Below are positions 37,266 through 47,700 of a stretch of 64,000 nucleotides of DNA, in pieces (position 1 is the stretch's first letter; each line of letters begins with the position of its first letter). The translations under genes and the position numbers were made by a program. The notes beneath the pieces are model-generated. The model did no database searches. It was not told the DNA's origin and saw nothing but the letters and a program-made list of their open reading frames with translations. The stretch is from Pseudoalteromonas sp. N1230-9 (lineage in GTDB: Bacteria; Pseudomonadota; Gammaproteobacteria; Enterobacterales; Alteromonadaceae): contig NZ_CP090419.1 of the NCBI RefSeq assembly GCF_032716425.1, positions 1,986,001-2,050,000 of the forward strand. The letters run 5' to 3'.

Positions 37266-38990
37266 ATGCAACCACAACATATTGCAGAGCTAATTTTATC
37301 TGGCTTTCGCAATCACTATAAACTTTTTCAAGCAATAACAGCTAAAGCCCCCTATGCCTTTGCTCAGCAAAATTGGCAAAAGATTAATGAAATTAGCAAA
37401 CTCAGGATCAGCCATTACGATGATCGGGTAAACGAAACAATTACAAAACTAAAATCGTTAAACGAGCAACAAATCATCGAGCTTGATCAAACATGCTGGT
37501 TAGAAACCAAGCAAATCTATCAACATTTTTTAAGTTTCCACCCACAAGCAGAGCTTGCCGAAACATTTTATAACTCCGTTTTTTGTCGACTATTTCATCG
37601 TCGCTACTTTAACAATGATTTTATTTTCGTCGAAGCAACACTCGCTGATGCACCTGCGCTTCCTGTTGAGGCTGAGTATAGAAGCTATTTTCCTGTTGTT
37701 GATGGCTTAAGACCGACTATTCGTAAAATCATCACCCAATTTGATTTTAAAGCGCCATTTGTGGATTTAGAACGCGACATCCGCCTATTGGTAAAGGCCT
37801 TTTATAAACAAGCACCCGATACACACCATCAAGCGTGGCAAATGCGTTTTGATATCCTGCAAGCACCTTTTTACCGTAATAAAGCTGCCTACATTGTTGG
37901 TCGTGTGGTGTCACAAAGTGGTGTGCAGCCTTTCATTATTGCTGTTTTACATCATGAAGACAAAGGCTTGTATCTGGATGCGCTACTGACCAAGTCATCA
38001 CAAATGCGAGTTATTTTTGGCTTCGCACGTGCTTATTTCATGGTTGAAACCCATGCGCCATCGGCACTCGTTCGCTTTCTAAACCAACTTATGCCAAATA
38101 AGACCTTAGCGGAACTATACAATGCTATTGGCTTTCACAAACAAGGCAAGACAGAATTCTATCGTGAATTTTTAAGTCACTTAAACCATTCTAAAGACAA
38201 CCTCGTTATAGCCCCAGGTACACCGGGGATGGTGATGATGGTATTCACCCTCCCCTCGTTTGGTTACGTATTCAAAGTGATTAAAGACACCTTTGGCGAA
38301 AGCAAACCGTTTGGCCGTGATACCGTATTGAAACGCTACCAACTCGTTAAAAGCCATGACCGCGTTGGTCGAATGGCAGATACAATAGAGTATTCGAACG
38401 TCGTATTTCCTCTTGCTCGCTTTGATAGTAAATTACTAGAAGAGTTACATAAAACAATTGGCTCTTCGATGATTATTGAGGGCGAGTGGCTGATTATTAA
38501 ACATTTATATATTGAAAGGCGAATGACCCCCCTTAATATGTACCTTGAGAATGCCACTGAGCAACAAGCGTTTGAAGCCATTGAAGAATACGGCCAAGCT
38601 CTAAAAGAAATGATTGCCGTCAACATTTTTCCAGGTGACATGCTATTAAAAAACTTTGGGGTGAGTAAACACAATCGCGTTATTTTTTACGATTACGATG
38701 AAGTTCAGTATTTAACTGATATGAACTTTAGAGCATTGCCAAAAGCAAAATCATATGATGATTATTTAACAAATGAGCAAAGCTACTCAGTTGCGCCACA
38801 AGATGTTTTCCCTGAACAATTATGCACCTTTGTCACGGCAAACCCTGTATATAAGCAATACTTGCTGAGTACTCATCCAGAGCTTGAAGACCCAGAGTTT
38901 TGGCAACAAGCGCAAAAGAATATAAAACAAGGCAAGGTGAGTCATATTTACCCGTACCCTGCCGGACAACGGTTTATCCATTATTGGTAA
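37266..38990 (+). CDS. aceK: Isocitrate dehydrogenase kinase/phosphatase
   Basis: AceK phosphorylates and dephosphorylates isocitrate dehydrogenase, directing carbon to the glyoxylate bypass. The 574-residue protein matches the family length. It shows APGTPGMVMMVFTLPS (the AceK ATP-binding loop, about 317-332), YVFKVIKDTFGESKPFGRD and the catalytic-core stretch GDMLLKNFGVSKHNRVIFYDYDE. No aceA or aceB genes are adjacent, so aceK stands apart from the classical aceBAK operon. It is followed 16 bases later by a LysR gene. Confidence 0.95.
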   Translation: MQPQHIAELILSGFRNHYKLFQAITAKAPYAFAQQNWQKINEISKLRISHYDDRVNETITKLKSLNEQQIIELDQTCWLETKQIYQHFLSFHPQAELAETFYNSVFCRLFHRRYFNNDFIFVEATLADAPALPVEAEYRSYFPVVDGLRPTIRKIITQFDFKAPFVDLERDIRLLVKAFYKQAPDTHHQAWQMRFDILQAPFYRNKAAYIVGRVVSQSGVQPFIIAVLHHEDKGLYLDALLTKSSQMRVIFGFARAYFMVETHAPSALVRFLNQLMPNKTLAELYNAIGFHKQGKTEFYREFLSHLNHSKDNLVIAPGTPGMVMMVFTLPSFGYVFKVIKDTFGESKPFGRDTVLKRYQLVKSHDRVGRMADTIEYSNVVFPLARFDSKLLEELHKTIGSSMIIEGEWLIIKHLYIERRMTPLNMYLENATEQQAFEAIEEYGQALKEMIAVNIFPGDMLLKNFGVSKHNRVIFYDYDEVQYLTDMNFRALPKAKSYDDYLTNEQSYSVAPQDVFPEQLCTFVTANPVYKQYLLSTHPELEDPEFWQQAQKNIKQGKVSHIYPYPAGQRFIHYW

Positions 38991-39006
38991 ACACTAAGGA
39001 CATGCA

Positions 39007-39945
39007 ATGAATATAAGTAAAATAGATTTAAACTTACTTGTTTACCTCGATACGCTGCTTAGGGAGTGTAATGTAACAAAAGCAGCCAACCAGCTGAGTA
39101 TAACTCAGCCAGCAATGAGTAACGGCCTCAAGCGTCTTCGCAATTTATTTAACGATCCTATCTTAGTTCGCACCAGTGAAGGTATGGTTCCAACTGAACG
39201 TGCTAAAGAACTGCAACCTGTGATCCGCGGCATTTTAATGACGTTAGAAGAAACGCTTGCTCCTAACCGCGAATTTGAAGCATCGCAAAGTAAGCGAGTC
39301 TTTCGTATCATGGCCAGTGACTACGCTGCAAGCACCCTCGCACCACGCTTACTGAGTAAATTACACGAAGAAGCACCGGATACAACACTCGATATCTTAA
39401 CACCAAGCGATGTGACCTTTCATGATGTTGAAAACGGTAAAGTTGATATGGCTATAAATCGCTTTGAAAACTTACCACAATCATTTCATTATAAGCAGAT
39501 TTGGAAAGATAGCTTTTGTTGCTTAGTAAAAGCCGATAATCCTATTATTGAAGACTTTAGCCTTGATAGCTATTTAAAAGCCCGCCATATCTGGGTAAGT
39601 AAAACAGGCTTTGGTGTTGGCGTGGGTATGGACCCTAAAGATGTGCAAAAGCTTGGCTGGGTAGATGAAGCACTTGCTCATTTTGGTAAGCACCGTAATA
39701 TTGCAACCTTCACACGTAACTACCACGTAGCCATTCACTTAGCAAAAGAACAAAACCTAGTTGCAACTCTGCCTTCAAAAGCAGCCAATATATACCTAGA
39801 TGACCCTGGTTTAACGATTCTTGAGCCACCCTTCCCAATTCCTCCATTTGAACTCGATATGATCTGGAGCCCTTTATTACACCGTGATGCCAGTCATATA
39901 TGGTTACGTCAAAAAGTGGCTGAAGTCGCAGATGAGCTTAAGTAA
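39007..39945 (+). CDS. LysR-family transcriptional regulator
   Basis: The 312-residue protein begins DLNLLVYLDTLLRECNVTKAA and has the winged-helix recognition segment QLSITQPAMSNGLKRLR (about 27-45). A PBP2-type effector domain follows (about 90-300). The DLNLL start and high identity of the HTH to NodD/LeuO/PcpR-like regulators place it in that branch. It starts 16 bases after aceK with no terminator between, so it may be cotranscribed and report on central carbon status. The target genes are not known. Confidence 0.88.
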   Translation: MNISKIDLNLLVYLDTLLRECNVTKAANQLSITQPAMSNGLKRLRNLFNDPILVRTSEGMVPTERAKELQPVIRGILMTLEETLAPNREFEASQSKRVFRIMASDYAASTLAPRLLSKLHEEAPDTTLDILTPSDVTFHDVENGKVDMAINRFENLPQSFHYKQIWKDSFCCLVKADNPIIEDFSLDSYLKARHIWVSKTGFGVGVGMDPKDVQKLGWVDEALAHFGKHRNIATFTRNYHVAIHLAKEQNLVATLPSKAANIYLDDPGLTILEPPFPIPPFELDMIWSPLLHRDASHIWLRQKVAEVADELK

Positions 39946-40143
39946 CATTTTACCTATTAATTTGTAATTATTGCTGATGTTTGCTTTAACGAGGACACAT
40001 CAGCCCCTTTCTTATCTCTTTATAATTTCACAAGTCATTGAAAATAAAACCCTTATAAATAATTAACGACTATGGAACGTGTCTTGCTCTAATTTATGTG
40101 CATTGTTTTTAAGTTATTAAATTTAAATTTTAAAGAGGTCATT

Positions 40144-40587
40144 ATGCAAACACATCAAGGACATGACGTTCATCATATTGCAGATATCATTCAAGTTATG
40201 AACAGTGGTATCGATTTTTATGAAAAAGCACAGGAAAAGGTTGAAGATCCAGCCATAATTGCACTATTTCAACGCATGATAGATGCTCGTAAAGTAAGCA
40301 TAGAGCGCTTACAACCTTACGCCATCAATGAAACTGGTGAACGCGAAAATGGCTCTGCATTTGCTGTAGAAGCACGTAAAGCCTATACCGCGTTAATTAC
40401 TAAACTTGGCGCTGATAAAGATAAAACCTACGTTGATGAGCTTGAAGAAGTTGAAGACAAAACACTTGCTGAAATTAAGCACGCACTCGACAAGCCTCAG
40501 CCACACGACTGTGAAGCAGCGTTATCAAAAACACTGCTAACTATTCAAAGCTGTCACGCTGAAATGAGTAAGCTTAAAAAACACTAA
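40144..40587 (+). CDS. Four-helix-bundle stress protein of the PA2169/DUF2383 family
   Basis: ATG 40144 follows an AAAGAGGT ribosome site; an upstream ATG at 40096 would give a poor 16-residue extension. The 147-residue protein is all-helical and acidic. It has the ferritin-like pattern of the family (DIIQVMNSGIDFYEKAQEKV; ALFQRMIDARKVSIERLQPY; EDKTLAEIKHAL; LLTIQSCHAEMSKLK). Related proteins are induced in stationary phase or stress and are of unknown function. A terminator follows. Confidence 0.8.
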   Translation: MQTHQGHDVHHIADIIQVMNSGIDFYEKAQEKVEDPAIIALFQRMIDARKVSIERLQPYAINETGERENGSAFAVEARKAYTALITKLGADKDKTYVDELEEVEDKTLAEIKHALDKPQPHDCEAALSKTLLTIQSCHAEMSKLKKH

Positions 40588-40601
40588 CTTGCTAACTAAT
40601 C

Positions 40602-40625
40602 AAAGCCCAGTTCAGCTGGGCTTTT
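40602..40625 (+). terminator. Terminator of the four-helix-bundle gene
   Basis: AAAGCCCAG (40602-40610) pairs with CTGGGCTTT (40616-40624) around a 5-base loop. The T run after the stem is short and is partly in the stem (CTTTTATC). Confidence 0.7.
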
Positions 40626-41030
40626 ATCTATTTAGATATTGGTTTGTATTTTCCCTGAAAATTTAACAATTAGATTTGGGTATCATCTGAAAGACAACTA
40701 AGAACTAATTCACCATCCGTAGTTCGTTCTTTGCCAAAGTTCGGCTAAGGTCCAATAACTGACCAACAAGCACGACTCGTTACTGCCCCACTTCGTGTTA
40801 ACGCAATAGCTCTAGAACTCTGCATCAAACGAACATTGAATATTTTCTTTTGATATAGTTTTTATATTTAGAATTGCAACTTTCCCCCATATTCAGGAAA
40901 ATTAGTAATTTGCGTATATTTATCGTCAGACTATTTCACCAATCTTAAAAGACCTTATTAACTAGCAAAAGGTCAGCTAATTTGTTAAAAACGTAGTAAT
41001 CAGAAAAGTGAGCTGTTTTGTTGTAAAAAT
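40626..41030. other. Gene-free AT-rich region before the integron-type cassette
   Basis: About 400 bases with no gene, repeat or clear promoter that I can support. Near its end a GTTAAAA (40984-40990) stands 47 bases before the phospholipase-D-like start and is a candidate 5' recombination junction of the cassette. That assignment is speculative. Confidence 0.4.
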
Positions 41031-41810
41031 ATGCGCGATGAGTGCACTATTAAAATGTTAGCATTCAATTGGAGTCATGTGAAAAATTCAAAAAATTTAA
41101 ACGAATTCCAAATCGAAAATGATGGGACGTTGGATTATCTAAAATTAGAAGATAATAGTACTTCGACAGAACAAGGTATTTCTGTTTATTTTAGAAATAT
41201 TGAGGAAAACCTTGTTAAATACATTGAGCAAGCACCTGCCGTGTTTGGTGCTGTAGCTTGGCTTACTAGTAACAACATACTTGATTCTCTAGCTAAGGTT
41301 GAAAATGTTCAAATCATTGTTCAAAAGGAAGATTTCCTTAAGCCTGACACTGGCTACATAGATCCAGAAAGTTGGAAATCTAAGCTCCATGGAAAATACT
41401 CTAAGTTAAAGTGCTCAATACATCGTGGTGAGTTTGAATACTGGATCTTAGGTGCTACATCTCTTGAAAGTGACTACTCGTTAGATCCTGTAAGGTGCTT
41501 TGGTAACTATAATTTTAAAAAGTTACCTGCTTTTCCGAGAATGCATAATAAATTTTTGGTTTTTGCAAATGTTGAAGTAGTAATGGACTGTGGTATGTAT
41601 CCAGTCCATGTAATTAAACCATATGCAGTTTGGACTGGTTCATTCAATTTCTCAGAAAATGCAACTAACTCTTTAGAGAATAGTTTGTATATTACAGACA
41701 AAAAAATAGTCAATGCTTACTTTAAAGAGTACACACAAATAGCGGCTGTTTCTGAAAAATTAAATTGGGATTCAAAATGGATAAAACCAGAATGGCATGT
41801 GGGAGTGTAA
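41031..41810 (+). CDS. Phospholipase-D-like (HKD) protein carried on an integron-type cassette
   Basis: The 259-residue protein ends with a single PLD-type half: MHNKFLVF with His172 and Lys174, then TGSFNFSENATNSLEN (Gly203, Asn206). The usual Asp of HxKxxxxD is replaced by Ala. One HKD motif implies a dimer, as in Nuc-type nucleases. Without a signal peptide it is probably a cytoplasmic nuclease or phosphodiesterase rather than a lipase. Start is uncertain: ATG 41031 has no good ribosome site, and ATG 41055 is also in frame. Its stop is ten bases before the attC site at 41821, the typical cassette arrangement. Confidence 0.75.
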   Translation: MRDECTIKMLAFNWSHVKNSKNLNEFQIENDGTLDYLKLEDNSTSTEQGISVYFRNIEENLVKYIEQAPAVFGAVAWLTSNNILDSLAKVENVQIIVQKEDFLKPDTGYIDPESWKSKLHGKYSKLKCSIHRGEFEYWILGATSLESDYSLDPVRCFGNYNFKKLPAFPRMHNKFLVFANVEVVMDCGMYPVHVIKPYAVWTGSFNFSENATNSLENSLYITDKKIVNAYFKEYTQIAAVSEKLNWDSKWIKPEWHVGV

Positions 41811-41820
41811 GTATTAAAAT

Positions 41821-41914
41821 GCTAACAAGCACTGTAAACGGAACTCGAACAGTTGGCTCCGCTTCGCTCCACATTTTAGCCAACGATTCTCGTCCGCTTA
41901 AGTGGGCGTTAGAA
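41821..41914 (+). other. attC recombination site (integron cassette 59-base element)
   Basis: About 94 bases with the classical attC layout. The outer arms CTAAC (41822-41826) and GTTAG (41908-41912) pair. Three unpaired bases follow on each side, then CACT pairs with AGTG (41901-41904). Spacers of 5 and 4 bases then leave one extrahelical base before CGGA (41839-41842) pairs with TCCG (41893-41896). The centre forms a 7-bp stem GTTGGCT/AGCCAAC. The 3' part CGCTTAAGTGGGCGTTAG resembles Vibrio and Shewanella superintegron sites. Cleavage is expected between G41908 and T41909. No attI, integrase or second attC was found. Confidence 0.85.
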
Positions 41915-41948
41915 CTTAATCGAGCTACGAACAATACAAGGAGCCCAC

Positions 41949-42347
41949 ATGGCTGAGGTAATAGAAGAAAATACATTATTAGAGTCAGCAACCGTGAGTT
42001 TATTACGTGTTCAAGAGTTCGACGTAGATCAACTACCTAGAGTTAATGAGCTAGGGAGCTCACTGAATTTTCAAAATTCAATTGAGCCGGCAAAACGGCT
42101 GATATCTTTGTATAAAAGATTGTCTACAACAGCGCTTGAAGATTTTCCTGATAACGTATTAACACAAATCAAGCAGCAGTGTGATGCAGGCTACCAAATA
42201 AATACTCTAAAATGTTTTTGTCCACAGACGGGTTATAAACATAACTCGCCTTTGTCCAAAAACGAGTTTATCCTACAGTCTGCTTATCGCGAATATAAGA
42301 CTGTCAGATTTTATCAAGGCCTACCAATAAAGCCTGACAGGATATAG
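41949..42347 (+). CDS. Hypothetical protein directly after the attC site, possibly truncated
   Basis: ATG 41949 has an excellent AAGGAG site and starts 41 bases after the attC cut point, the usual distance in a cassette array. The 132-residue protein (MAEVIEENTLLESATVSLLRVQEF...) is mixed helical and acidic-then-basic. It has no signal peptide or membrane segment, and I recognise no family. No attC follows it before the convergent GNAT gene 43 bases away, so if it was a cassette its 3' end is lost. The C-terminal 20 residues may come from joined flanking sequence. Confidence 0.55.
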   Translation: MAEVIEENTLLESATVSLLRVQEFDVDQLPRVNELGSSLNFQNSIEPAKRLISLYKRLSTTALEDFPDNVLTQIKQQCDAGYQINTLKCFCPQTGYKHNSPLSKNEFILQSAYREYKTVRFYQGLPIKPDRI

Positions 42348-42390
42348 TTAAAGTTGATGATAACTAAGCACCCAAAAAAGAGCGATTCAA

Positions 42391-42840
42391 CTATTTAACA
42401 TCAAGCTCCATTACAACACCATCTTCATCGTCTTCTTCCGTCACAACAAAACCAAACTGTGAATAGAATTTACGCATCACATGATGACCTGGCATGTAGA
42501 GTATGGTTATTTTTTTACACTCTGGAATAACTTTCATCTCGTTAATTACTAATTCTGTTGCGATTTTACCTATACCTTGGCCTTGATATTTTACATCAAC
42601 CATAAACTGAGCAATGTAAAACTCATCAGGGAGTCCTTCTTCAAGTTCTTGGTAGTATTGAATAAAACCGACGACTTCATTTTCGCGATATATTGCTCGA
42701 TTAACATAATGAGGATAAAAGCTAGATTCAGCGATAGACTCTGAATTTAACGCGACGTAATCCTCTTGCTCTTTAGTTATTTCTAAGTGAATTACATCCA
42801 CCCAATTGTCCTTCGTAACATCACGCAAAGTAACGTTCAT
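42391..42840 (-). CDS. GNAT-family N-acetyltransferase
   Basis: The 149-residue protein has the GNAT acetyl-CoA-binding loop (VDVKYQGQGIGKIATELV, about 83-100), with the Q-x-x-G-x-G/A motif readable as QGQGIGK. A MRKFYSQFGFVVTEED segment follows (about 122-137). The N-terminal TLRDVTKDNW and a Tyr/His-rich middle resemble BltD/diamine acetyltransferases, but the substrate is unknown. It is transcribed alone. Confidence 0.82.
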   Translation of the reverse strand: MNVTLRDVTKDNWVDVIHLEITKEQEDYVALNSESIAESSFYPHYVNRAIYRENEVVGFIQYYQELEEGLPDEFYIAQFMVDVKYQGQGIGKIATELVINEMKVIPECKKITILYMPGHHVMRKFYSQFGFVVTEEDDEDGVVMELDVK

Positions 42841-42950
42841 AAACTTCCCTTTATATTCTTTTCAAGAAAAGTATATATATGGGTAAAGTGAATAAAAACA
42901 ATGCTTAATTAGAGGATAAGCCTTTGAGTGTGTGCGGCAACTTTTAGTTA

Positions 42951-43020
42951 AAATCGCTTGGTAGATAGATCACCCAGTTCCTTTGGAAATCAAGTTCTAG
43001 GGATCTACATCAAGCGATTT
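42951..43020 (-). repeat. Long imperfect inverted repeat (16-bp stem) after the catalase-like gene
   Basis: AAATCGCTTGGTAGAT (42951-42966) pairs with ATCTAC (43003-43008) and CAAGCGATTT (43011-43020), with an AT bulge. A 36-base loop contains a smaller TTCC-TTT-GGAA hairpin. On the minus strand TTTTAAC follows the stem. It begins nine bases after the catalase-like stop, so it may terminate that gene, or be a small mobile or REP-type element. Confidence 0.6.
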
Positions 43021-43028
43021 AGTATGGT

Positions 43029-44006
43029 TTATTGCCCCGTTAAACGCTTAGCAAATGAAATAGCATAGGCTGTTGAGCGTAGCTTAAGTACTTTGTCATC
43101 ACTTGGCATAAAGCCTTTAGACAATAGATTTGGGTCATAATTTGTGAGGTCGCAGCCTGATTCGCCCGTAGATTCTATCGTAAGCTTTCCTAAATTAATT
43201 GTTGTGCGATCAACAGGCCAACGAACTGAAGGATCGGTTAATGCATCACCCTGCTCGGCTAACTCTGCTTGAAAACGATAATGAACCTTCCCTTTTGCTA
43301 AATCCTCTTCAAGCCGCTTTGCAAGAAATGACTTGGGTAATGTTTTCATTTCCTCTTCTGTTAGCACTTGTTCTGGCTCTTCTGGCACCATAGTCCACCT
43401 AAAGGCATGCTTAGCGCCCTTTTCATCAACCATGTAAAAGGTATGCACACCAAAATAACGCGAAGACACATACGATGCAGGCGGATTATGGCTTTGTAGC
43501 CAATTAAACTGCCCTAAGGTACTCGGGTGTTGTTGCCTGTATGCTTTCACTTTTGCAAAATCGATTTGACCCGTTTTTTCGTCAGGTAATAAAGTGCTTA
43601 GCAAACCAAAAAATGCTTCAGGGCTGTTACCTGCAAAAACAGGCGTGGTAAGCCCTGCGATATTGTGCACATCGCCATTTTCTAGCACAAACTGCACCCC
43701 CATACCACGTGGTGAACGTGATGTTTCATCAGCGTGAGGGTTACCACCGCCCATAGAAAAACGGATATTCGCTTTAGACGGCGCATTAAATAAAGGGCTG
43801 ATTGAATACTGTTTTGCGGCTTGATTAGGTGTAAATGTGCCGACAGCGCACACACCTTTGGCGTGACCTTTTCTGATACCTGGCTGCTTACCCGAGAGCT
43901 TCTCAAATAAATTTATGAAATCTTGCCCATTTACTGATTGCTCCGCAAAACTTGCTGTGGGTATAACAAGACATACAGCACAAACCAAAGACTTAATTTT
44001 TAGCAT
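43029..44006 (-). CDS. Periplasmic catalase-like peroxidase (SrpA type)
   Basis: The 325-residue protein has a signal peptide (MLKIKSLVCAVCLVIPTASFAEQ), unlike cytoplasmic catalases. It shows a shortened catalase core: GHAKGVCAVGTF with the distal His, SPRGMGVQFVLENGDVHN, GQFNWLQSHNPPASY, and the C-terminal RSTAYAISFAKRLTG with the heme-ligand Tyr. Lacking the tetramerisation and NADPH-binding parts of full catalases, it belongs to the catalase-related peroxidases. It likely detoxifies peroxide in the periplasm. Transcription is from a 289-base AT-rich gap shared with exbD. Confidence 0.88.
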   Translation of the reverse strand: MLKIKSLVCAVCLVIPTASFAEQSVNGQDFINLFEKLSGKQPGIRKGHAKGVCAVGTFTPNQAAKQYSISPLFNAPSKANIRFSMGGGNPHADETSRSPRGMGVQFVLENGDVHNIAGLTTPVFAGNSPEAFFGLLSTLLPDEKTGQIDFAKVKAYRQQHPSTLGQFNWLQSHNPPASYVSSRYFGVHTFYMVDEKGAKHAFRWTMVPEEPEQVLTEEEMKTLPKSFLAKRLEEDLAKGKVHYRFQAELAEQGDALTDPSVRWPVDRTTINLGKLTIESTGESGCDLTNYDPNLLSKGFMPSDDKVLKLRSTAYAISFAKRLTGQ

Positions 44007-44295
44007 TTATCCATCCTTTTAACTTAGTTACATCGAGATGACCTAACAAAGCTTATTATGATTTCATTAAAGTTAATAAAAAAAACTCCACCAACAAAAA
44101 CGCTACAAACATTTAATAAACTTAGAATAATTATTTAACTACCGTATTTTTAAAAGCTGCTAACTTTAAATTTAGGATCCGAAAACTGCTGTGGCGCCCA
44201 GCAATTTAAAAATAATCCGTGTTCATAACACGACTGTGGCTAGTGCACTTAATCATAAATTTTGTGTCTTGGCCAAAAACAACAAGGACCTAATT

Positions 44296-44694
44296 ATGGT
44301 GAAACAACATAAAAAGACCACTGCAAACGCTGATGTAGATATGACCCCCATGCTCGATATTGTGTTTATCTTGCTTATATTTTTTATCGTAACAACCTCG
44401 TTTGTTAAAGAGCGCGCAATTGAAGTTAATCGCCCTTTGGCAAAACCAACTCTTGATAACCCGAAAAAACAAGCGCAATTTACTATCACTGAAAATGATA
44501 GTATTTACTTTGCAAACCGGCTTATAACACCAGAGCAGATAATCGCTAACCTCGCGTTATTTGCCGCACAATTTGAAATGACAAATGTGCAAGTTACAGC
44601 GAGTGAGCAAAGTAGTCACAAAACCTTGGTCACCTTGCTTGATAAAATAAAACAGTATCAAGATGTTCCAATCTCTATAAGCACGTCTTTATAA
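44296..44694 (+). CDS. exbD: Orphan ExbD-type biopolymer transport protein
   Basis: ATG 44296 was chosen because an AAGGA site lies seven bases upstream; an in-frame GTG at 44191 would add 35 unlikely residues. The 132-residue protein has a single membrane helix with the key aspartate (VDMTPMLDIVFILLIFFIVTTSF, Asp near 24) and a periplasmic C-terminal domain, the standard ExbD layout. ExbD works with ExbB and TonB to energise outer-membrane receptors, but no exbB or tonB is near. It is convergent with a TonB-dependent receptor gene. Confidence 0.9.
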   Translation: MVKQHKKTTANADVDMTPMLDIVFILLIFFIVTTSFVKERAIEVNRPLAKPTLDNPKKQAQFTITENDSIYFANRLITPEQIIANLALFAAQFEMTNVQVTASEQSSHKTLVTLLDKIKQYQDVPISISTSL

Positions 44695-44696
44695 CT

Positions 44697-44719
44697 AAAA
44701 AAGGGCCTAACGGCCCTTT
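44697..44719 (-). terminator. Terminator of the TonB-dependent receptor gene
   Basis: AAAGGGCC (44700-44707) pairs with GGCCCTTT (44712-44719) around a TAAC loop. On the minus strand a run of six T residues follows. It may also affect exbD from the other side. Confidence 0.8.
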
Positions 44720-44754
44720 GCAAGTTTATAATAATAAAGGAATCTAAAGGGAGT

Positions 44755-47700
44755 TTAGAACTTGTACTCTGCACCTACGTAGTAGTATGCACCGTTAAAA
44801 CCAAATGGTGCTGAACGACGCGAGTAAGTGAATACACCAGGGCTTGACACTATTGTGTTGCCGTTTGCATCAACAATCGTACCCGAGCGCGAATTACCAA
44901 TGGTGTTCTTATCTGGATAAACATCAAATAGGTTATTAGCGCCAATGTTAAACGATAAGTTTTCATCGAAGAAGTAACTCACTTTCACATCCGTTAAGAT
45001 TTCAGCACCGTATGTTTGGCGTCCGCCGTCTTCCACAGTGTACTCACCATAACGGTTTAGTGATAAGTTTACTGTCCAGTCTTCAAGTCGGTAAAGTGCA
45101 CTTAAGTTAATGCGATCTTCTGGCTGCCACTCTTCGATGATTGACGTTTCTTGAGCAGAAAACACATCTTCAACAGGAATAGTTTCAAGACCACTGCCTG
45201 ATGGCGTAAATAAATCAACCACATCTGTTTTGGTGAAGTTAGCAGCAAAGGTGAAATCGAGCGTGCCGCCAAGGCCTTCAGTGTTCCATGTGGCAACTAA
45301 ATCAACACCTTCTGTTTCTGTGTCCGCACCATTTAAGAAAAACTGACCAGCCCCTGCGCCAGAGCTGACAAGTGCAGCATCAAGTGTATCTGATAAACCT
45401 TTACCTAAACGGTTAGAAATAACGATACGGTCATCAATATCAATCGAATAGTAGTCAATGGTTACGTTGATATTGTCAGTCACGTTATACACAATACCTA
45501 AACTACGGTTTTGCGATTTTTCTTCTTTTAACTTAGGAATACCAATCGATTGCGCGAGTGTACTGTCGTTTCTAAAAGTACCCACTTGTTCAGCCACTAA
45601 GCTGCCATCATCGCCAACAACAAACTGTGTACTTATGTTATTAAAGTAAAGCTGTTGCATCGACGGTGCTCTAAAACCTGTACTCAATGCACCGCGTAAA
45701 GAGACATCTTCAGTAATCGACCAATTAGCCGCTAGCTTAAAGTTAACAGTGTCGCCAAAGCCTTTGTAGTTATCGTAACGAAGCGCGCCTGAGATAATAA
45801 CATCATCGATCACGTAAGTTTCAGCATCCGCATAAAATGAAATCACATCACGTGATTCATCCACAGACGACGCAGGATCAGAACCACCAAAGCCTTGTGT
45901 ACCACTGGCTGCATCTTCACTACCCACACCACCACTAAGGCCTGAATAAATGCTTACACCATCAACGGTGTCGTAATCACGATAAGCATATTCACTGCCC
46001 TCTAAGATGCGAAATTCATCTGTGCGGATTTCAGCACCCAATGCTAATGAAAAATTATCGTAATCTTTTGTGTAATCAAGATTAAGTGTTTGTAGAGATA
46101 ATTCTAGGCCATATGCAAACGCTGAACGCGGGATGGTGGCACGAATTTCATCTGCTGATAAACCTTGCTCATAACGAAGTAAGTTCGCGTACGAACCATT
46201 AATTGTGTCACTTGTGGTGTAATCAATGCTGTTTTCACCGTAGGTGTAAGATAAATCAATGCTTGAGTCATTATCGAACGACTTTTTAAAACCTACGTTA
46301 TAAGACACGTCATCAATAACGGTATTAATTTTCGGTAAGAAGCCCATTGGAATTGTTGCATCACCGTCTTGTAATACAGGGTTACCAGTCGCATTGGCGT
46401 TATGGCGGAAAAATGCCGCTGATTCATTTTCACGGTTTGAATAAGTGATAAAGCCATACAGCTCACCACCAGCAAGTTCATAACCAGTATTAACGGTTAA
46501 AGCAAATTGCTGAGAATCAGCATCACCAATTCTAAATGTATCACGCGGTGCTGTTAGTTCGCGTGGGTCACCAGCAAGTAAAGTGCCGTCATCAAGCTCC
46601 GTACAACCATAAAATTGACATGAGCCATGAAGGCCAGCACGGTTGGTTGGAGCGCGATCACGGTAGTTAATTGTGGTATTTAAATAACCATCATCACCTA
46701 GGGCAAAACCTGTGTTAAAATCAATATTAACGGTTTCGCCATCACCCTCTGAGTATTCACCATAGTTAATGGCTGCTTTACCACCTTCTTCAGCATCTTT
46801 TAACACGATATTGATAACACCGGCAATCGCATCTGAACCATATTGCGCGGCTGCACCATCACGTAAAACTTCAATGCGCTTAATTGATGCCGCAGGAATA
46901 GCATTCATGTCAGTACCTGCGGTACCACGACCTACTGACGTATTAATATGGATGATACTCGCTTGGTGACGACGCTTACCATTGATAAGTACTAAAGTTT
47001 GGTCGGGCCCTAAACCACGTAGTGTTGCCGGACGCAGCGCATCAGTACCATCACTGATAGACGAGCTGGAAAAGTTAAAAGAAGGGGCGATAGCTTGAAG
47101 CATTCGGCCCACTTCTGTTTGTCCTGTATTTTCAAGTGCCTCCGCACTTAAAATATCAACGGGTACCGGTAAATCCTCAACTGAGCGCCCTGCTACACGA
47201 CTACCAACAACAGCGATTTTCTCGATATTTTCTTCTGCAGCTTGTTCTGCTGCAAATGCCTGATTATTGCTTGCAAGTAGTAACGGCACGACTGCAGCAC
47301 TGACCCCTGAAAGGTTTTTCATGTTGTTATCTTTCCTATTGATTTGTTTGAGTTTTATACTCAGTAAACCAGTTTGATCAACAACCGCATCGAGCTTAGT
47401 TCCTTGAAGCATGGTCTCAAGTGCATCTAGCTTGGTATAAAAACCAAACACCGACTGTGCTTGATATTGCTTAGCAAGCTCAAAAGAGAAAATAACCGTT
47501 TGGTCTGTTTGCTTAGCGAATTCAATCAAGGCTAAATCTGCTCGTTGCGCTTTAATATCAAATTGCAGCATTTGCTTTTCAGCAGCAATGGCTGGTTGCC
47601 CCATACATAAGCCGTAGACAGCCATCGACGCTGGAAATAAATGCAATTGTTTACTGCGCAACTTAATCAAACAGTTCAGAAAGAAAAATCCACTATGTAA

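Follow-up and report, generated by a model that had tools for sequence, protein, structure and literature searches.

A gene cassette at an attI-like site without an adjacent integrase gene in Pseudoalteromonas, and the dispersed family of sites to which it belongs

How an integron cassette comes to lie in chromosomal DNA that encodes no integron integrase is the question raised by a stretch of 64,000 nucleotides from Pseudoalteromonas sp. N1230-9 (G000 C1:1986001-2050000), hereafter the window, which is part of the larger of two replicons. Among named relatives, the strain falls near P. arabiensis and Pseudoalteromonas sp. CO133X. An initial annotation had described a phospholipase D (PLD)-like gene closed by an attC site, with neither an integrase gene (intI) nor an attI site, and had read it as a lone cassette captured at a chromosomal site or as the remnant of a larger array. 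Integrons typically have one attI close to intI (PMC9024848), and array-only clusters have been attributed to off-target insertion, intI loss or rearrangement (PMC8618304). The comparison of the window with related genomes points to a different answer, in which the PLD-like gene is probably an ordinary cassette at an attI without adjacent intI, one of many integrase-less attI platforms filled by the integron integrase (IntI) in trans.

The attC (41821..41914, plus strand; R'' GCTAAC at 41821-41826 and R' GTTAG from 41908) was scored, as had been proposed, with a covariance model, R1, which was built from 16 attCs; the window site was excluded, and one seed (C2:700126) came from the same genome. 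Positions 41823-41911 of the plus strand were matched at full length with 77.5 bits and an E-value of 5.6e-17, which confirms the site and is the sole match at E <= 10 in the window. The claim that there is no second attC is thus correct for the window, and the front of a second gene lies beyond attC. The 7-bp central stem (GTTGGCT/AGCCAAC), the CGGA/TCCG block and the usual cassette spacing are present as described, the stop codon of the PLD-like gene (41808-41810) lying ten bases 5' of the R'' box at 41821. Folding, the other check proposed, spoke against the identification: in unconstrained DNA folding of 106 nt, the whole attC hairpin was not the minimum-energy structure on either strand (bottom strand -16.5 kcal/mol, z -2.33; top strand -15.1 kcal/mol, z -2.39), and the support for attC therefore comes from the covariance model. 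Simple stem-pairing attC finders missed the site, and the covariance model was used in their place. A DNA similarity search of the genome with the window attC gave merely short matches elsewhere, and Rfam gave no match in window positions 38000-46000 or in two of the loci discussed below (L129 and L117). A loose core pattern (GTTRRRY...RYYYAAC) was uninformative genome-wide, with 212 forward matches vs 176 for its reversed control.

The lack of an attI, by contrast, proved to be an error. Directly upstream of the cassette lies an attI-like site (40973..41060, plus strand; core G^TT at 41057/41058), detected with a sequence model, R2, that was built from 25 seed sites, 6 beside intI and 19 not, with the window site excluded. 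R2 gives this site 69.7 bits, with E 1.0e-18 per genome and 5.9e-20 in a local search; the site resembles the attI regions beside intI, and the cassette starts at its GTT core. The 5' junction is not the GTT at 40984 that had been put forward as a candidate, since the repeat extends as far as 41057-41062, and so does the attI model. Approximately 267 bases to the left of the cassette form an intI-less attI region that is a dispersed repeat (left conserved segment, 40790..41057, plus strand), parts of which match elsewhere in a second genome of the same species (G089). When ten such left stretches were aligned, including two from upstream of intI genes, all ended at one core, here ...CACTATTAAAATGTTA. 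The cores of attI and of attC R' delimit a cassette of 851 bp (41058..41908, plus strand). Counted by eye, 16 of the last 18 bases agree between the window attI and a published Shewanella attI (PMC9892861), and a search of the window with the full 28-mer of that source, allowing up to 3 mismatches, gave no match. The description as a lone cassette at a chromosomal site stands in part: this is a genuine cassette outside a complete integron, and the presence of a single attC and the absence of an integron integrase fit a single attC lacking an integron integrase (SALIN), but the site that holds it is not arbitrary, being attI-like and part of a dispersed family. The one attC match at E <= 10 in the window falls short of the two or more attCs without integrase that define, by IntegronFinder 2.0 default, a cluster of attCs lacking an integron integrase (CALIN), and the window has no TIGR02249 match, so that the adjoining intI of a complete integron is missing.

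The absence of an integrase gene holds for the window, since all seven TIGR02249 matches that the genome contains lie outside it. One of the seven, the only one above the cut-off (C2:633531-634478, 450.9 bits; L016), is on the second replicon and contains one in-frame TGA. The remaining six score below the cut-off, as do matches to this family in 14 of 14 control genomes. The intI of G089 (C11:629059-629910, L044) has the same TGA interruption plus an altered end, and intact copies are present in relatives. The TGA is at the same place in L016 and L044 though their proteins differ at many positions, and several other genomes of the genus have intI matches containing TGA or TAG. In the genus, intI (TIGR02249, E <= 1e-60) was found in 87 of 108 genomes.

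The attI-like site is one of nine in this genome (E <= 1e-3), of which one adjoins intI and eight are away from it. All nine are followed by an attC on the same strand within 2 kb. This distance is ~0.38, 0.48, 0.66, 0.76, 0.81, 0.98, and 1.92 kb for seven orphan sites, ~0.79 kb for the site at C2:330011, and 0.32 kb for the intI-linked site; the attCs downstream of C2:330011 and C2:477930 score weakly, with 26.5 and 31.1 bits, respectively. R1 finds 28 attC matches in the genome at E <= 1. In the genus, R2 gives 474 matches in 94 of 108 genomes, 82 of which have two or more. Among the best 150 of these 474 matches, 26 lie within 3 kb of intI (from the matches at E <= 1e-60) and 124 do not, and the same count for 23 genomes of at most four contigs, among the matches listed, gives 8 near vs 50 far; these ratios are merely indicative because the model, with 19 of 25 seeds orphan, is biased to orphan-type sites. 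Using DNA similarity alone, the left segment was found in at least 34 of the 108 genus genomes (6 candidates scored per genome), and a sample of the family showed an attI-like match (E <= 1e-6) in 96 of 395 genomes.

The left segment is also found (query 87-295, 77.6%) on 12 Vibrio plasmid records. Two of these plasmids, one typed conjugative and the other non-mobilizable, were examined and carry the left segment followed by a tyrosine recombinase, an IS91-family transposase and arr, and after these a right box of the kind described below; the arr gene ends in an attC-like site of just 22.6 bits (E 0.031). The arr gene, for a rifampin ADP-ribosyltransferase, is at L129:7582-8119 within the intI-less attI unit. 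The pair of tyrosine recombinase and IS91-family transposase starts directly after the attI core (TTGTTG-AACTAAGC; L129:5184-7207 and L130:5184-7207), and the eight bases AACTAAGC are also located behind the attI core in L072 (2661) and L099 (1558).

Strain-level differences were found at an orthologous locus elsewhere in the genome. Comparison of C2:329000-334500 (L117) with C11:500000-508000 of G089 (L042) showed three blocks of 95-97% identity, with the gaps between them filled by different genes. At the first break, homology stops at the GTTA of the first orphan attI and restarts at the attC end; the second extends from the core of the second orphan attI, which is altered in N1230-9, to the attC core plus the right conserved segment. 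In P. shioyasakiensis A316, this locus holds one attI of this kind and, again, different content. PADLOC gave no match (E <= 0.01) for two cassette proteins of this swap locus.

The unit in the window lies between two boxes. The left end box (40774..40799, plus strand; GACTCGTTACTGCCCC/ACTTCGTGTT) is an imperfect copy of the 26-bp palindrome AACTCGTTTTTGTCCAAAAACGAGTT, and the right end box (42243..42268, plus strand) reads AACTCGCCTTTGTCCAAAAACGAGTT. The latter is preceded by a right conserved segment (42190..42226, plus strand), the usual form of which is GCGTTACTGAATAAATACTCTAACGTGTTTTTGTCC and which here reads GCTACCAAATAAATACTCTAAAATGTTTTTGTCC. In alignments, imperfect inverted sequences were seen by eye at the unit ends, and no target-site duplication was seen there by eye. 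The right box can also be read as a terminator-like stem (minus strand 42268-42243, 11 pairs; terminator-like sites 5 found vs 1.0 expected), a reading that leaves its pairing with the left box unexplained. Where boxes are closely spaced, a conserved joint of ~34 bases (...ACGAGTTATAAACATAACTCG...) is present between their centres (window 42216-42268, L042:3910-4000, L043:3465-3535, L044:6103-6174, and L120:4297-4340).

The interval that holds the unit, between a DUF2383 gene and a catalase-like gene, is present in eight relatives; nine loci were retrieved, and L115 (40% identity, from an unrelated metagenome-assembled genome) was left out. Homology to the window breaks in or <=15 bases from the left box in L107, L108, L111, and L113, stopping at 40790, 40797, and 40777 in the last three, and in or <=2 bases from the right box in L107, L108, L109, L110, and L111, restarting at 42253, 42241, 42256, 42242, and 42242, respectively. 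No box-linked break is seen for L109 on the left, for L113 on the right, or for L112 and L114 on either side. Three of the eight relatives have attI-like sites at this hotspot (L107, 66.9 bits; L113, 38.4 bits; L114, 30.6 bits). The hotspot genes of L108 resemble, by eye, members of the TetR, DsbA, and NmrA families, those of L111 (P. gelatinilytica NH153) encode Septu PtuA and PtuB (E 6.7e-136 and 1.5e-62; L111:9187-11282), L109 holds other DNA, and L110 is interrupted by a contig end. The flanks of L112 are just ~22 bases apart. No true empty version of the insertion site with the same sequence, the comparison suggested in the initial annotation, was found among these relatives.

The box pattern, allowing up to 3 mismatches, is found in 56 of 108 genus genomes, and the reversed control had no match among the genomes listed. 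Box pairs also bound attI-free stretches. They surround, for example, genes that resemble, by eye, a phosphoethanolamine transferase and a two-component system (L171:832-7327, L172:898-7402, L173:743-7230, and L177:737-15514) and, in L182, an AraC/EamA pair recognized by eye; L173 and L182 have common flanks and different cargo. Inspection by eye of the listed open reading frames (ORFs) between the boxes of L171, L173, L177, and L182 showed no recombinase; L177 has a transposase-like ORF, located outside its left box. With regard to Xer/dif as a mover of the boxes, the palindrome is presumably unlike dif.

Collectively, these data place the PLD-like gene in a dispersed unit, composed of an end box, an attI region, at least one attC-bearing cassette, a right conserved segment and a further end box, and such units have become widespread in Pseudoalteromonas genomes without carrying intI. 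The attC, the attI-like site, the dispersal and intI-less structure, the exact junctions and the cassette differences between two strains are observed directly, and the rest of the model is inferred: action in trans, expression from attI, the process that moves the units and the function of the PLD-like protein. The IntI would have come from another place, either the second replicon, while its gene was still unbroken, or an outside source, and most likely recombined the attCs of cassettes with these attI sites in trans, so that one enzyme would serve many platforms. Because the units are found between palindromic boxes at positions that hold different cargo in relatives, their movement is most likely box-directed, by a site-specific recombinase, a transposase or homologous exchange among the box repeats. 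A broader version of this model, about which we are evenly divided, is that Pseudoalteromonas and its family carry self-spreading integrase-less integrons, in which many box-bounded attI platforms and one IntI swapping cassettes in trans form a distributed integron, while the boxes also trade arrays for Septu or different cargo, with Vibrio plasmids as vehicles of the units.

Several observations weigh against filling in trans. The resident intI and that of G089 each contain an in-frame TGA, and a working IntI in the strain is therefore not established. A second orthologous pair (L118/L045) is collinear at 99%, so that not every unit differs between strains; the unit of the window shows no observed cassette change, its closest intact comparison holding other cargo; and homologous recombination could have brought whole arrays, cassettes included, to the swap locus. 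Promoter-like sites in the region are at chance level (5 found vs 6.0 expected, none on the plus strand at 40790-41078), and expression of the cassette from attI, as might be supposed, is therefore unsupported so far. To these are added the preference of R2 for orphan matches and seven attCs of the genome without a preceding attI-like site (C1:766058, C1:2365751, C1:1619093, C1:1618746, C2:333758, C2:864457, and C1:2926940), the last four of which are weak. The first three have 52.0, 45.6, and 41.8 bits and are possibly true off-target cassettes.

The strongest rival extends the remnant idea to every orphan array: each would have begun as a complete integron and lost its intI where it stands, its cassettes being older than the loss. 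It is consistent with the damage to intI in this species, with intI loss as one published origin of attC clusters (PMC8618304), and with some intI-linked units (L072, L073, and L076) that end in a similar box just past the intI stop. Nevertheless, we regard it as unlikely. Left segments without intI have a common structure and a common left edge in the genome itself, in other Pseudoalteromonas and in Vibrio plasmids, so the intI-less form has been copied and not made anew each time; the same distribution contradicts a remnant peculiar to this locus, as does the swap locus, where the cassettes of two strains differ behind the same intI-less attI sites. A second rival, movement of ready-made arrays by a transposon, a tyrosine-recombinase element like the elements named SEs, or homologous exchange, with no later IntI action, appears very unlikely. 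It would explain the imperfect inverted end boxes, the boxes around non-integron cargo and the different cargo at the same site, and SEs carry inverted end motifs of 19 bp with a 6-bp spacer and encode two tyrosine recombinases (PMC9345347). However, it leaves unexplained why strain differences have their edges at attI and attC cores, and neither a recombinase between the boxes of the four loci listed above nor a target duplication was seen by eye. The least plausible rival is off-target capture, by which the cassette would have entered a non-classical genomic site (attG) through attC x attG recombination, a known route for stray cassettes (attG work cited in PMC12444791 and PMC12901181) that may account for attCs such as C1:766058, because the left junction of the window cassette is attI-like (E 1e-18) and not an attG.

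The PLD-like gene of the cassette (41079..41810, plus strand) has a GTG start and encodes 243 aa; a longer ORF from 41031 was set aside, as its start would fall inside attI. Of 1089 candidate sequences, 914 are homologues of the protein at E <= 1e-3, counting the protein itself. Identity reaches 69% in the best of the others, and the matches listed include Vibrio, Pseudomonas, and Serratia. Within the HKD motif (HxKxxxxD...GSxN), H, K, G, S, and N are invariant in 22 of 22 aligned sequences (HxK, GSFN), and the Asp is absent. The score against PF13091 is 25.5 bits with a cut-off of 27, and a sequence search of the PDB gave weak matches, the best being the endonuclease 1byr (E 0.033), with mitochondrial cardiolipin hydrolases at E 0.62 and above. 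Our best guess from the sequence is a single-HKD nuclease or phosphodiesterase that would work as a dimer. A role in phage defence, as raised at first, is unproven, and PADLOC gave no match (E <= 1) for this protein or for the 132-aa ORF beyond attC. Relatives in 99 genus genomes are restricted to the genome itself and G072 (34% identity), a rarity expected of a cassette. The 132-aa ORF (41949..42347, plus strand) is, to approximately residue 82, the front of a second gene that continues into the right conserved segment, and five homologues besides itself cover 51-63% of it. Because this front of another gene runs into the right segment, the array probably once held two cassettes; an attC belonging to the second gene was not found by R1 in the window at E <= 10. 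Beside the unit, L110 and L114 share with the window a GNAT acetyltransferase gene (42391-42840, minus strand) that L107, L108, L109, and L111 lack, and window positions 42352-43010 are a second variable stretch at the same place.

The existence of multi-copy intI-less attI sites would imply that a capture platform can multiply by itself. Some genomes would then have a dedicated docking site for their stray cassettes, and programs that search only for attC would misread such sites. The origin of SALINs and CALINs becomes directly testable through the attI at their left edge. More generally, the findings suggest that gene-capture platforms can spread without their enzyme.

Among known systems, attG insertions, reportedly described by Loot et al. 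in 2024, are similar in that a stray cassette lies away from an integron, whereas the left junction here is attI-like. Integrons flanked by structures like miniature inverted-repeat transposable elements (MITEs; Gillings 2009, by reference in PMC8618304) share short inverted repeats with no mover inside, but that case is, by its title, a Tn402-like class 1 integron, and here there is no intI, no target duplication was seen and the boxes bound other cargo. SEs (PMC9345347) have inverted end motifs and likewise occur in marine gammaproteobacteria and their plasmids; they encode two tyrosine recombinases, whereas none was seen in the window unit. SALINs and CALINs (PMC9229058 and PMC9024848), including 115 single orphan cassettes in 41 Shewanella genomes (PMC9229058), have attC cassettes with no intI nearby, as here. 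They are defined by attC only, and attI detection in IntegronFinder 2.0 is limited to class 1 (PMC9024848), whereas the present cassette is preceded by an attI-like site within a repeated unit whose ends are conserved. In the literature searched, with subscription journals mostly outside its scope, no description of a multi-copy, genus-wide, end-bounded family of intI-less attI sites was found. One intI-less attI heading a cassette cluster is already in print, in the CALIN of the Shewanella prophage M16-3 (PMC9892861). That is one case in one prophage, whereas the family described here has nine sites in a single genome, genus-wide spread, end boxes and strain-level differences in cassettes.
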